A stretch of DNA of 57,063 bases from Alkalinema sp. RU_4_3 (GTDB lineage: Bacteria; Cyanobacteriota; Cyanobacteriia; Leptolyngbyales; Leptolyngbyaceae), in contig JAAUSA010000006.1 in NCBI GenBank assembly GCA_012031975.1, positions 1 through 57,063 of the forward strand, in the 5' to 3' direction. The translations under genes and the position numbers were made by a program. Shown here in pieces: positions 34,776-44,834 of this stretch. The notes under the pieces were generated by a model. It was given only the letters and a program-made list of their open reading frames with translations, did not search any database and was not told the DNA's origin. Positions within the stretch are counted from its first letter, which is position 1. Each line of letters opens with the position of its first letter.

Positions 34776-35057
34776 CTAGATGCCGAGGAGAGCGTCTAGT
34801 TCGTCGAGGGCTTCACAGTTGGGTTTTGGGGTTTTGGGTTGGGGGTTGGGGGGTTTGGAGGTTTTTGTTCCATCATGGGGTGGATGAGGGGGGTGCTTTG
34901 GCGTCCGTAGAGGTAGTCGTCGGCGTATTTGCGGAAGACGGCTTCGATGGCGGCACGGGAGTTTTAATCCCCAGGCTTGGGCGATTTCTTCGGCTTTGCT
35001 GATGATGTCGGCACTGAGACGGAGTTTGTTGTCGGGTTTTAGTTTGCTGTCATACAT
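34776..35057 (-). CDS. ParR-like partner of ParM, two compensating frameshifts
   Basis: A 93-aa protein that overlaps the end of parM by 19 bp. It begins MYDSKLKPDNKLRLSADIIS (a strand-helix start recalling ribbon-helix-helix ParR proteins), then KAEEIAQAWGLKL. After one extra C near 35000 is removed the frame gives RAAIEAVFRKYADDYLYGRQ, then a Pro/Asn-rich linker, and returns to the first frame at NCEALDELDALLGI near 34830. The span is exactly 94 codons. A short acidic C-terminal helix after a disordered linker is how ParR-type adaptors contact their actin-like filament. Genetic coupling to parM supports the call; DNA binding is inferred. Confidence 0.65.
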   Translation of the reverse strand: MYDSKLKPDNKLRLSADIISKAEEIAQAWGLKLPCRHRSRLPQIRRRLPLRTPKHPPHPPHDGTKTSKPPNPQPKTPKPNCEALDELDALLGI

Positions 35058-36061
35058 AGCTGGATGTCCTCCTGGGGATATAGGCCGCGTACGTTGGCGA
35101 ATTGGGGGTCGGGCATGATCGCAAAGAGGGGAAATCCGGCGAAGCGATCGGCGATCAAATGGGAGCTGCCGCCAGTGACGAGGAATTTGGTGACGCGGGG
35201 CATGAAGGGGGTGTACTGAGATTTGACGGTGCGGAAGATGTTTTTGTACCAGGGGTCGAGGTATTCGTCGAGCCATTCGCGCCAGTTGTGTCCGGTGTCG
35301 GCGTAGGTGTGGCCCATGCGGAAGCCATCCATGATTAGGCCCGGATCGGCGGTAGTGCCGAGGGCGTCGGTGAGGCGGTGGTCGAAGCTGATGGAGGTGG
35401 CCAGGTCGTAGGATCCGCCCCGGTCCATGACGTTTTCGTCGATCACTTCGCCGTCGGCGTCGATCAGGCGGCTGAGCCAGGTGCCGCCGCCGAGGTCGAT
35501 GACGATGGTGTAGCCGCTGCCGGTCAGGAGTCCCTGCCGTTGAGCGCAGCGGTAGGAGCCGAGGCCTTCGCGCTCTAAGGTGATCGATTCGACGTTGATT
35601 TCGTAGGGGATGTCGTTGCGGATGAATTCGTGGGGGCCGAGGAGCTGGTCGCGGATCAGGCTGTGGTGGCGATCGGGGTCGGGGGTGGAGAGGTGGAGGT
35701 CGAGGCTGAGGCGACAGGTGCCGTCGGGGTCCTGGGGGGCGCTTTCGATGCAGGCGTAGAGGTGAAGGCGGGAGAGTTCGACTTTGTTTTCGACGACGGT
35801 TTGCTGTTGGCGGCGGTATTTGTAGGCTTGCATGCCGAAGTGGTAGCGTTTGCCGTCGGGGAGTTCGATGAGGGGGGAGGTTTCGTTGTATTTGACGGGG
35901 TTGCGGCCTGTGGGGAGCTGGTAGCGCATGGAGCGGATGGCTTTGGGGTTGCGTTGGCCGTTCCAGTATTTGAGGTCGTAGTTGCCGGCGTCGAGGGCGA
36001 GGATGCGGTGGTGGCTGGTGGTGGTAGTTTTTGAGGTGGGTGGGGTGATGGTGGCGGTCAT
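35039..36061 (-). CDS. ParM/StbA-type bacterial actin ATPase
   Basis: 340 aa from ATG 36061, 9 nt after AGGAGG; a longer frame from 36121 lacks such a site. Actin-fold signatures: phosphate-1 RILALDAGNYDLKYWNG, phosphate-2 TIVIDLGGGTWLSRLIDADG, adenosine-binding FLVTGGSSHLIADRF. In plasmids ParM filaments push DNA copies apart through ParR. Here the pair is on the chromosome, 9 kb from rbcL. I recall a report that chromosomal ParM/ParR homologues in Anabaena were repurposed as a membrane-linked cell-shape cytoskeleton (named CorM/CorR), so segregation should not be assumed. Intact. A promoter with palindromic GTAC repeats lies upstream. Confidence 0.85.
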   Translation of the reverse strand: MTATITPPTSKTTTTSHHRILALDAGNYDLKYWNGQRNPKAIRSMRYQLPTGRNPVKYNETSPLIELPDGKRYHFGMQAYKYRRQQQTVVENKVELSRLHLYACIESAPQDPDGTCRLSLDLHLSTPDPDRHHSLIRDQLLGPHEFIRNDIPYEINVESITLEREGLGSYRCAQRQGLLTGSGYTIVIDLGGGTWLSRLIDADGEVIDENVMDRGGSYDLATSISFDHRLTDALGTTADPGLIMDGFRMGHTYADTGHNWREWLDEYLDPWYKNIFRTVKSQYTPFMPRVTKFLVTGGSSHLIADRFAGFPLFAIMPDPQFANVRGLYPQEDIQLCMTAN

Positions 36062-36137
36062 GAAGTACGTTCCTCCTGGGTTTTTGCTTGCTTTTGGGGG
36101 TCGGGTTGTCCCCAGTTGCATTCGTTTTGGGTTTTTG

Positions 36138-36283: not shown

Positions 36284-36355
<72 letters not shown>

Positions 36356-37375: not shown

Positions 37376-39369
37376 ATGGCTATTAAAACGAAAGCACATT
37401 CCTTTTCAGGTTCCACAAATATTACCAATACTAGTATTAAGAAGCACTTCAAGAAATATGAGCCTTGGCAAGTTATTGCCGAAATGATTTGGAATGGTTT
37501 AGATGCCAGAGCAACAAGGATCGATGTCAATGTGGAACGAAATGAATTAGGCGGATTTCATTTGATTTCAATCTTAGATAATGGTGATGGGATAGACTTT
37601 GAGCATTTAGAAGATAATTTTGAGAAGTTTGATGACACTATTAAAAATGATGTTGGTCAACATGGTTCTAATGGTAGAGGACGGTTGTCTTTTTATAGAA
37701 TTGCAAATGAAGCAGCTTGGCATACAACATTTAAAGGTAAAAGTGCATCAATCTACATCAGCTCTTCTAGTTTGAAGGATTTTCATGGTGAGTATTTCAA
37801 TGATGACAAACAGCACCCCATACTAAAAAACTTGGATAAGGGGACCTGTGTTAAGCTAACGGAGTTTAGCAAGAAGAAAACATCTTTCAATGTTGAAACC
37901 TTGCCTCAAAAGCTCGAAGCTGAATTTGGCTGGTTTCTTGCATTGCAAAGGATAGGAAAATTTTTATCAATGGGAAACAGCTTAATATTCCAGGGCATGT
38001 AATTCATGAATTTTCTGCTTCTATCCTTAATAAGGAATTTAAAATTGCTATCATTCGATGGCATGAAAAGCCTCGTTCAGAAAAGTCATACAACTATCTA
38101 TTAAACTCTCAAAGCCGAATCGTGCATAAAAAGTTGAGTACTTTTAATAACAAGGCAAAATTTCATGTTAGTGTGTATGCCTCTTCTTCCTGGGCTGATG
38201 ATTTTGACCCAGGTGATCCTAATTTATTCGTCTCTGCTGAAAATACTACTCAGTCAAAGGTTTGGAAAAATCTTTTAGAGTATCTTGCAGAAAAGACAAG
38301 AGCTATTTATGAGGATTTTCTTAGAGAATTTGCAGAGGAGCAGATTATTGAATGGGAAAGTAATGGCGTATTTCCAAGCTATCCTGATGAGGATGCTGAC
38401 ACTGCTCGATGGAGAACAGAAAACATTAAGGAGTTAATTAGGAATATCTATGTAGCGGATCCAACAGTGCTAAACTCTCTAAATGCAAAGCAACAGAAAA
38501 TAATTGTTAGACTTTTAGACAAGCTAATGATTTCCAATGAAAATGATGCTTTGCTGGAGATTTTAGAGAGTGTTCTTGATTTGGATGATCAGCATGTGAA
38601 ATCTCTGTCCGAACAATTGCAGAGAACTACTCTAGAGCATATTGTTAGTACAATAGAAGTGCTTCAAAAACGTGAAATTGCGATTCAAAAGTTGCGAGAA
38701 GTGATGAATAATCACTACAAGGAAGTTTTGGAAACTCCAGACTTGCAGAAAGTCATAGAAGCCAATACTTGGCTTTTCGGCTCTCAATATTCGATATTGG
38801 GTGCTGAAGAAGATGATTTCATCTCAATCGCGAAGAAATTCCGAGATGAGATTCCAGATATTCACACTATCACCGAAGATGATTTAGAAGATCCTAAAGA
38901 GATTGATGGAGTTCGCAAGCAGGTTGATTTATTCTTGGCACGTAAGGTTCCTGAGTATGATCATACTGGCAACGAATATTACAAATGTGTAATCATAGAA
39001 ATCAAAAGACCAGGAATTGCTCTAAATGACAAACATCTTAGGCAAATTGACGAGTATGCTAGAGTGCTTAGTCGTCAACCAGAGTATCAGAGTGATTTAA
39101 TCAAATTTGAAATTATACTGGTAGGGCGTACGATTTCAAACGGCAGTTTTGACATTAAAAATCGGCTGAAGGACAATGAAGACAAGGGTGAATACGGTTT
39201 GGTTTCAACAGGAAAGCATAAACGTTATGTTAAGAGCTGGTACACTATTTTTAATCAGTTTGAACTAACAAATCGATATTTACTAGACCGTCTTAAGACA
39301 AAGCGCGAAGACCTATCTGGTAAAACTAGTAATCAGCTTATTGCTGATTTGCAGCAACCTAATCAATAA
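37376..39369 (+). CDS. GHKL (MutL/MORC/Hsp90-like) ATPase fused to a PD-(D/E)XK (Shedu/Mrr-like) nuclease, one frameshift
   Basis: 664 aa after restoring one base near 37967 (an AAAATTTTT run). The N-terminal ATPase has N box AEMIWNGLDARA (E36, N40), G1 ILDNGDGID (D68) and G2 lid GQHGSNGRGRLSFYRIA (about 94-110). A middle region follows (FHVSVYASSSWADDF) with a long helical, partly coiled-coil section (QLQRTTLEHIVSTIEVLQKR). The C-terminal nuclease-like domain shows EANTWLFGSQY, then RKQVDLFLARK (Asp about 517) and CVIIEIKRPG (Glu about 541, Lys about 543), i.e. D...ExK. GHKL ATPases linked to restriction nucleases are known as prokaryotic relatives of MORC and are thought to be anti-phage. 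The gene is visibly AT-rich compared with its neighbours, suggesting transfer. Confidence 0.8.
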
Positions 39370-39546: not shown

Positions 39547-39562
39547 GAAGTGACCTATGTAA

Positions 39563-39619
39563 CCGATCGTCCTCACAAGAAACTCAATGCTCGATCGCTA
39601 CCACCACTTTCGTAATCTG
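39563..39619. repeat. 57-bp dispersed repeat, copy 1
   Basis: Nearly identical (53 of 57 positions) to 41001-41057, same orientation. It starts CCGATCGTCCTCACA and ends CACTTTCGTAATCTG. Both copies sit at junctions between gene fragments. Confidence 0.8.
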
Positions 39620-40978: not shown

Positions 40979-41000
40979 CCCTCCCCACCACCAAAAGCCA

Positions 41001-41057
41001 CCGATCGTCCTCACAGGCAATCCAATGCTCGATCGCTACCACCACTTTCGTAATCTG
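41001..41057. repeat. 57-bp dispersed repeat, copy 2
   Basis: Direct repeat of 39563-39619 with four mismatches clustered near position 5-11 of the internal CACAAGAAACTC segment. It lies between the AAA fragment and a broken Uma2 gene. Confidence 0.8.
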
Positions 41058-41248: not shown

Positions 41249-41842
41249 ATGTCCTTGGTGGAATTCTTGGCTTGGGAGGGCGGCGGCGATCGACTGTATG
41301 AGCTAATTGAAGGAATGCCCCATGCCGATTTATGATCCGACAGCTGACCATGAAGATGTGGCAGATCTGATCTGTGATTGCTGAAGGCGCACTGTTTGGC
41401 CCAGAATCTGCCCTATGTGGTTAAGCGATCGAAGTTGGTGGCTGTGTCTCAGGAAAGCAAGGTCACAGCGAGACGGGCCGATATTGTGGTGTTTGAACAG
41501 GCGACTTGGGAGGGAATGAAGGGATTATCGAGTTCGGCGATGGCCTATACTGCTCCACCGTTAGTGATTGAGGTGGTTTCGACGAATTGGCGGGATGATT
41601 ATCTGACAAAATTGGCGGAGTATGAATCGATTGGGGTACGGGAATATTGGATCGTAGACTATGCGGGGCTGGGCGGTGTGCGCTATCTCGGTCGGCCAAA
41701 ACGGTCTATGCTATCGATTTATACGATGGATGGCGAGGAATATGGGGAGCCGCTGCGGTTTCGGGGAGATGAGCCCATTGTTTCGCAGGTGATGACGGGG
41801 CTATCGGTAACGGCGGACCAGCTTTTGGGTGGGATTGCCTGA
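41249..41842 (+). pseudogene. Uma2 family (DUF820) protein, two compensating frameshifts
   Basis: ATG 41249 begins MSLVEFLAWEGGGDRLYELI, then EGMP. After dropping one C near 41322 the frame continues MPIYDPTADHEDVADLIC, and after adding a base near 41380 it becomes LLKAHCLAQNLPYVVKRSKL through to 41842. The last part has VTARRADIVVF, PPLVIEVVSTNWRDDYLTKL and EYESIGVREYWIVDYAGLGG, the standard Uma2 active-site region (D, E-V). The span is exactly 198 codons, so the gene may be intact in the cell. Confidence 0.75.
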
Positions 41843-43173: not shown

Positions 43174-44745
43174 CTATCCGTAGATTACTGTGACGTTCAA
43201 ACCCTTTGGTGTTGAGCTGGACTCCGTGCGCATCCGTTCAGCGATGGGTTTTGCATCTTGGCGACGATCGAAAATCACCAGCCAACCTGTCGATAAATTT
43301 AACCGTTCTAAATATCCTTCGATTTGTTCTAGGCCTGCTTCTAAAGGATTGGGACGGCGATCGCGATGCACCTTGAGTTCGATCCCCAGTGTGACTTCAC
43401 CATATTGTAGACAGAGATCCATGCGATCGCTCCCAATGGCATATTCCCGCTCCAATGTCCCCCCACCATTGATCACCCGATGTAAAAACGCCATCATCAC
43501 CAAATGCGGCGCAATTTCATGGTAGGACGCACTGCGTAATAACGGCTCACCATGCTGTTTCCAAAAGGCTAGAAATGCCTTTAACAATGCGTCGGCATCG
43601 AGACTGCCATCGGCATTTAACCAAGTCGGTGCAATCATTGGCAAACTATCCTGGGGGCCTTGGGCGAGGACACGGGGTAAAACTTCGCGATAGATCGGAT
43701 TAGCAATTACCAATCCACCGGCGGGATCCCGGCGCACTAGGCCGAGATCTAGTAGAAATTGGCGATCGTCATTAGAGGTTTCTTCCAAGGCCTGTCCGGC
43801 TAGCATGGGCTCAATAATTGCCCGCACTCGGTTCTCCCGCAACCGCTCGGCTAGACTATCAAGATGGGTATCCTGCCTACGAATCAGGATTTCTTTTGCG
43901 GTTTGAATATGGTTTGGCGTAATGCTCACGGTGGTATCAGTGACTAATTCTTCCACCACTTCCTTAGCTAAAGCATTGACCAACCAAGGTTGACCTTGGG
44001 TTAGATTAAAAACTAGCTCGATTGCTGCATCTGTGAAAATCTGCCCAGTTGCTGTGGTGTGCTGCCCATAGAGGCTAGTCACTTCTTCGAGATTAAAATT
44101 TCGTAGGGTGAACGATCGCACTTTGATATTAAAGGGACTGGCTGTGCCTAGGCGGTCACTGCCGCCAGCGGCGACTTTATAATCTCGCACATCCCGCAGG
44201 CCAATTAGGGCCAAGGACTGGGGAAACCCCTGGGGGCGGCGGGGATAGCCATCGCGTAACTGTCGCAACACGGCAATTAATGTGTCATCCCGCAGGGCAT
44301 CAATTTCATCGATAAATATCACCAGCGGACGGACGGACTGTTCAGCCCAGAGACTTAGGGCTTGGCCAATATGCTCACAGTCGGCCCAACTGGGCGGGCG
44401 GAGTTCTGGAGGTAGCCAATGGCGGGCCGCATCCTGCCATGCAGCCAGTATCGCTCTTTCAGCCCGTTCCGGTGCCTGGGAATAGGCAGCCCCAACCTCG
44501 GCGGATACCATTAAGGCGGTGTAGGTGCCGGAGGCGGTTAGTTCCTGGGCTAGGGTCAACATGGCGGTGGTTTTGCCAGTTTGCCGGGGAGCATGGATGA
44601 TGAAGTAACCCTGCTGGGTGATCAATTTTGCAATTTCAGGTAGACGCTGCTGAGAGGGCAACAGGTAATGAATGTCAGGCTTACAGGGGCCTGCAGTGTT
44701 GAACCAGCGCATGGGATTGGGCTCCGAACTGGGTAGCCTGTTCAT
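43174..44745 (-). CDS. AAA-family ATPase with C-terminal PD-(D/E)XK-like domain
   Basis: 523 aa from ATG 44745 (MNRLPSSEPNPMRWFNTAGP); a start at 44712 (MRWFNTAGP) is equally good, and the longer frame to 44820 is unlikely. P-loop YFIIHAPRQTGKTTAMLTLA, Walker B LVIFIDEIDALRDDTL and an arginine-rich sensor region (LIGLRDVRDYK) form the ATPase. A winged-helix-like part (ENRVRAIIEPMLAG) follows. The end has GSDRMDLCLQYGEVTLGIEL then KVHRDRRPNPLEAGLEQIEG, i.e. D...E-x-K of the nuclease fold. These AAA plus DUF4143/PD-(D/E)XK-like proteins are frequent in cyanobacterial genomes, with no known role. A relic of a second copy is at 40904. Confidence 0.8.
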   Translation of the reverse strand: MNRLPSSEPNPMRWFNTAGPCKPDIHYLLPSQQRLPEIAKLITQQGYFIIHAPRQTGKTTAMLTLAQELTASGTYTALMVSAEVGAAYSQAPERAERAILAAWQDAARHWLPPELRPPSWADCEHIGQALSLWAEQSVRPLVIFIDEIDALRDDTLIAVLRQLRDGYPRRPQGFPQSLALIGLRDVRDYKVAAGGSDRLGTASPFNIKVRSFTLRNFNLEEVTSLYGQHTTATGQIFTDAAIELVFNLTQGQPWLVNALAKEVVEELVTDTTVSITPNHIQTAKEILIRRQDTHLDSLAERLRENRVRAIIEPMLAGQALEETSNDDRQFLLDLGLVRRDPAGGLVIANPIYREVLPRVLAQGPQDSLPMIAPTWLNADGSLDADALLKAFLAFWKQHGEPLLRSASYHEIAPHLVMMAFLHRVINGGGTLEREYAIGSDRMDLCLQYGEVTLGIELKVHRDRRPNPLEAGLEQIEGYLERLNLSTGWLVIFDRRQDAKPIAERMRTESSSTPKGLNVTVIYG

Positions 44746-44834
44746 TATAGGCCATGGCTTCAGGGGGGATGGGTTTATGCCCGCGTTGATACAAAACCTG
44801 CCTTCGCAGGTTACGAACATAATGATTGATGCCT

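Follow-up and report, generated by a model that had tools for sequence, protein, structure and literature searches.

A split GHKL ATPase-PD-(D/E)XK nuclease gene, probably of the paraMORC3/GHKL-Shedu kind, in Alkalinema sp. RU_4_3

The window, a stretch of 57,063 nucleotides of the Alkalinema sp. RU_4_3 draft genome, carries at 37376-39369 two overlapping frames that encode an N-terminal GHKL ATPase and a C-terminal PD-(D/E)XK nuclease. The gene is genuine and conserved, is of a defence type and belongs to a known kind, but it is broken or mis-sequenced in the Alkalinema genome; it is probably a member of the paraMORC3/GHKL-Shedu kind of single-protein phage-restriction nucleases. This explanation is the best supported by the two domains and their intact motifs, the MORC-like fold of a relative, the SduA_C-like nuclease and the prophage and defence setting of the family.

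The two frames, the slip between them and their surroundings

The N-terminal half is encoded by ORF 1 (positions 37376 to 38002; 208 aa as read; all features of the gene lie on the plus strand), and the second frame, P0002 (positions 37945 to 39369; 474 aa), contains the rest of an S5 domain, a helical middle region and the nuclease. ORF 1 and the second frame up to its stop at 39369 together account for the interval that the earlier note, made from the sequence, had assigned to a single gene. The second frame comprises 481 open codons to this stop, and an open run of 475 codons would be expected by chance with p ~4e-17 at the local base composition. The family-like sequence of ORF 1 stops at about residue 190, the point of the frame slip; its residues 7-190 show 45% identity to prophage relatives (blastp), P0002 shows 43-47%, and the same relatives align with both frames, over ~190 residues of the first and almost the whole of the second. 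The halves are separated by a -1 slip at approximately 37946-37950 (within 37940 to 37965), a region that the relatives read in one frame. All 64 aligned relatives are uninterrupted and pass through the slip point in a single frame. A programmed frameshift was also considered and rejected, since the relatives need none and inspection of the joint revealed no slippery heptamer of canonical form.

The slip in the window copy has one of two explanations: an error in the draft assembly, or a change that inactivated the gene recently. There is slightly less than an even chance that this particular copy has decayed into a pseudogene, and such decay would be compatible with the family assignment proposed here. 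In favour of decay, the slip lies in the sole copy of the gene in its genome, the adjacent DrmC gene is cut down to a C-terminal remnant of 64 aa, and the neighbouring Uma2-family gene (41378-41842), possibly truncated, begins at profile position 44 and lacks the first 43 positions. Against decay, there is a single lesion across 2 kb of gene, all the invariant catalytic residues are kept, the remaining frame is open for its entire length, and a base-calling error is equally possible because the genome is a 362-contig draft.

The gene has a GC content of 0.36-0.40, compared with ~0.54 in its surroundings, in agreement with its earlier description as an AT-rich gene in a GC-rich setting. Downstream, profile searches recovered the DrmC remnant (8.8e-21), HigB, HigA, Uma2, DUF1016/YhcG and an AAA ATPase, and thereby the neighbours named before (a DrmC relic, HigBA, a DUF1016 nuclease and an AAA gene). 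The AAA ATPase (43174-44820) contains a C-terminal GIELK motif of nuclease appearance and has no clear fit to a PADLOC family. A 58-bp direct repeat (93%) at 39562-39619 and 41000-41057, of which the genome holds just two copies, flanks HigBA. Upstream, a tRNA-Val gene is situated at 36284-36355, directly preceded by a plasmid-partition-like ALP_N actin-like protein gene (35039-36121). The tRNA part of the previously proposed tRNA island border was therefore confirmed; the island border itself was not upheld, since a search for an att-like direct repeat at tRNA-Val found none. No phage genes were detected among the scanned neighbours of the window copy.

Motifs and predicted folds of the ATPase and nuclease halves

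Profile searches identified HATPase_c_3 (E=4e-16) and HATPase_c (7e-8) in ORF 1, the GHKL ATPase core covered by the Pfam HATPase_c_3 stretch spanning residues 28-129 (37457 to 37762). All three motifs of the GHKL superfamily (E..N, DxGxG and the GxxGxG lid) are present. Motif I extends from E36, the general base, to N40 (37481 to 37495), and the equivalent residues E32 and N36 of L101, the closest intact relative, are invariant in the 64 relatives; motif II, D68-N-G-D-G72 (37577 to 37591), has its D, G and G invariant, and the ATP lid HGSNGRGR at residues 96-103 (37661 to 37684) has its G, G, G and R invariant. In L101 numbering, the residues invariant in the 64-relative alignment comprise E32, N36, D64, G66, G68, K86 and the lid glycines. 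The HATPase_c_3 domain is present in all 64 relatives, and the assignment of a GHKL ATPase with N40, D68 and a GxxGxG lid (HGSNGRG at 96-102) in the earlier note is thus borne out.

The ATPase core is followed by a predicted S5/transducer-like domain (37763 to 38184), which is broken by the frame slip and was delimited from the strands of the P0002 model and from Foldseek searches with the intact relative. The AlphaFold model of L101 (pLDDT 87) found its best PDB matches in the MORC4, MORC2 and MORC3 ATPases (Foldseek, E 1e-12 to 1e-11), with Hsp90 and MutL ranking behind, which agrees with the MORC likeness suggested before. This model aligns with the GHKL and S5 modules of both MORC and MutL across 300-420 columns, and its low TM scores are explained by the fact that only the GHKL-S5 half is matched. 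An S5 domain after the GHKL domain is accordingly predicted by the model for L101 and, by homology, would be present in the window protein. The MORC2/3/4 ATPases share this GHKL-S5 fold but lack a nuclease, carrying CW and coiled-coil domains instead.

In the AlphaFold model of P0002, residues 105-256 form a long helical middle region (38257 to 38712; mean pLDDT 89), and the C-terminal half is modelled with a pLDDT of 89. The PD-(D/E)XK nuclease domain, resembling that of Shedu SduA_C, spans 38626 to 39324. A helix with the invariant residues E263 and W276 (ETPDLQKVIEANTWLFGS; 38731 to 38784) provides the leading acidic residue of an E-D-ExK signature, which is completed by the predicted catalytic residues D328 (38926 to 38928) and E352-x-K354 (EIK; 38998 to 39006) and followed by the conserved Q367 (39043 to 39045). 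All 11 C-terminal positions invariant among the 64 relatives, including E263, D328, E352, K354 and Q367, are kept in the window protein; in L101 numbering, the invariant nuclease residues are E449, W462, D514, E538, K540 and Q553.

The earlier note had described this domain as being of Shedu or Mrr appearance, and profile comparison upheld only the first. In a pairwise hhalign run against an SduA_C profile built from 6 sequences only, the nuclease scored 95.3% over 156 columns (E 2.2e-8), and the alignment, which begins at the helix with the leading E and ends at the C-terminal strand, takes in the whole domain. HSDR_N_2 reached 84.9% over 64 columns and Mrr_cat 0.2%, so that no Mrr-type similarity was found. 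The Pfam SduA_C model gave no match to the window protein and matched 2 of the 64 relatives weakly (best E 7.4e-4), and the PADLOC SduA match to the window protein was also weak (E=0.0016). A phmmer search of the PDB with the nuclease half returned chance matches only, and Foldseek with the C-terminal half alone yielded nothing at E<=0.001, the weak matches being MspJI, McrBC and MORC4. Shedu structures were absent from the top 50 Foldseek matches of both this search and that with L101, and the structural check previously recommended for Shedu and MORC thus succeeded, with L101, for MORC alone. A Shedu membership of the window protein is putative and rests on remote homology, since the Pfam Shedu model is silent and VcSduA, the Shedu protein discussed below, was compared through its published description. 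The similarity to SduA covers the whole nuclease domain (95%), whereas classical SduA (SduA_C, DUF4263) has no GHKL module and the window protein falls below the Pfam threshold.

Relatives, their carriers and a prophage branch

Among 386 genomes of the window's phylum that were searched, relatives occur in 4 others. The window half alone as a query against genome contigs retrieved no confirmed relative, and a family alignment was needed; searches with this alignment gave at least 527 relatives from species genomes, the best 80 of which were kept, and 63 loci in viral contigs. Plasmid-borne relatives were found in Deinococcus, rhizobia, Phaeobacter and Streptomyces. Although the GHKL half resembles MutL, the presence in just 4 other genomes of the 386 from the phylum, the carriage on plasmids and prophages and the SduA_C-related nuclease make a DNA-repair or MutL-like housekeeping protein a very improbable reading.

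The genes adjoining the cellular relatives encode HsdS (4/100), DNA methylases, GmrSD, BrxL, TIR, SEFIR, Schlafen-AlbA and Mrr, and those at distances above 6 kb (66) have mainly housekeeping functions; the tally counts models rather than unique proteins and is therefore an indication of defence enrichment, not a measured rate. In a Pasteurella phage, the relative is flanked by tail genes (L013:7906-9864), likely a cargo site. In a Phaeobacter plasmid, there is an overlap of 4 bases between the relative and the end of a type ISP restriction-modification gene (L012:3383-10296), which suggests co-expression.

This overlap, together with a further relative near a DNA methyltransferase gene, would suit a restriction enzyme with a GHKL domain, akin to BbrUII/HgiDII, that would cut site-specifically while a cognate DNA methyltransferase protects self DNA. 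These enzymes are likewise restriction proteins of ~660 aa with a GHKL domain at the N terminus; the NCBIfam BbrUII/HgiDII model hits residues 33-184 in the ATPase half (1e-11), and relatives match PADLOC type II REase models. However, the NCBIfam match (NF050001) involves the GHKL half only and falls short of full length, its 44 bits lie far below the family cut-off of 550, and the nuclease half is unmatched. Moreover, no methyltransferase partner was seen in the window, where genes at 37-45 kb were scanned, or next to those prophage relatives that were inspected, and VcSduA works alone (PMC12137116). An enzyme of this sort is unlikely.

In a quick tree, the window gene groups with sequences from prophages (7 rows, support 100). 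The genome-contig set consisted of the best 80 of at least 527 relatives, those most like a Deinococcus query, and the branch may therefore have cellular members that this set lacks. Most prophage loci of the branch have a CI-type repressor gene immediately upstream in the same orientation; in 16 loci, which include near-duplicates, the distance is 30-363 bp. The CI-adjacent prophage relatives include L102, L105, L106-L109, L111, L112, L113, L115, L116, L118, L146 and L155. PHROGs confirmed the CI repressor in four loci of the branch and identified an integrase, C-type repressor or terminase beside two others. No close copy of the L102 relative was found in E. coli genomes.

A lysogen could express a gene at this site behind CI, and such sites resemble those of lysogen exclusion genes, for which rexAB is the comparison. 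Many nuclease-based defence proteins act by abortive infection, and an effector that, once triggered, degrades DNA generally and kills its host would fit the same position. This alternative is improbable, if a little less so than a methyltransferase-protected restriction enzyme; protection by VcSduA at all phage doses tested is consistent with direct restriction (PMC12137116). Under the preferred reading of a phage-restricting nuclease, we tentatively propose that the window protein is part of a separate branch of GHKL nucleases, with known members that are mostly prophage genes behind CI, and that it might act there as a lysogen-expressed exclusion nuclease against competing phages with a trigger separate from that of chromosomal GHKL-Shedu; this is possible rather than probable.

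Known systems and the proposed mechanism

The earlier note had held that this layout was not a standard named defence system. This was mistaken, as the layout has been published, in 2008 under the name paraMORC3 and again in 2025 as a GHKL-Shedu (type I-D), the latter work also containing the mechanism idea (PMC2292703, PMC12137116); the new detail here is the prophage placement of the nearest relatives behind a CI-type repressor. ParaMORC3 proteins consist of a GHKL domain, an S5 domain and a C-terminal RE-fold domain with E-D-ExK, and are often standalone (Iyer, Abhiman and Aravind 2008, PMC2292703). Compared by description, the window protein shares with them the N-terminal GHKL domain, the S5 domain (by homology) and the C-terminal RE-fold with E-D-ExK, as well as the often standalone, patchy and laterally moved occurrence.

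VcSduA of V. cholerae, in which a GHKL domain is combined with a DUF4263 nuclease, confers protection against both T1-like phages and vibriophage X29, and the E27A and K557A substitutions each abolish protection (PMC12137116). Again compared by description, both are single-gene proteins in which a GHKL domain precedes a Shedu-type PD-(D/E)XK nuclease with the same kinds of catalytic residues. The spacing from the GHKL Glu to the nuclease Lys is 530 residues in VcSduA (E27-K557) versus ~508 here, with 502-516 usual among the relatives, and the Pfam SduA_C signature reported for VcSduA is undetected in the window protein. A search by spacing for a VcSduA-like sequence produced no clear candidate. 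By analogy, the published VcSduA test supports the candidate anti-phage role put forward in the earlier note, whose idea of an ATP-gated clamp coincides with the proposal that the GHKL domain controls the nuclease (PMC12137116).

In this mechanism, the intact protein would dimerise through its GHKL head, ATP binding would close the GHKL-S5 clamp on DNA, and the change would be relayed along the helical middle region, so that the paired C-terminal PD-(D/E)XK domains would then be licensed to cleave incoming phage DNA while sparing the host. The gating, the sensing of a DNA feature and the transfer from VcSduA to the window protein are inferred.

The gene would add a cyanobacterial member to the single-gene ATPase-gated nuclease kind, and its nearest relatives indicate a branch at prophage immunity loci whose proteins are intact. 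This CI-adjacent prophage branch is the part worth following, and whether ATP-driven closure of the GHKL clamp controls DNA cutting is a question that bears also on MORC and MutL.
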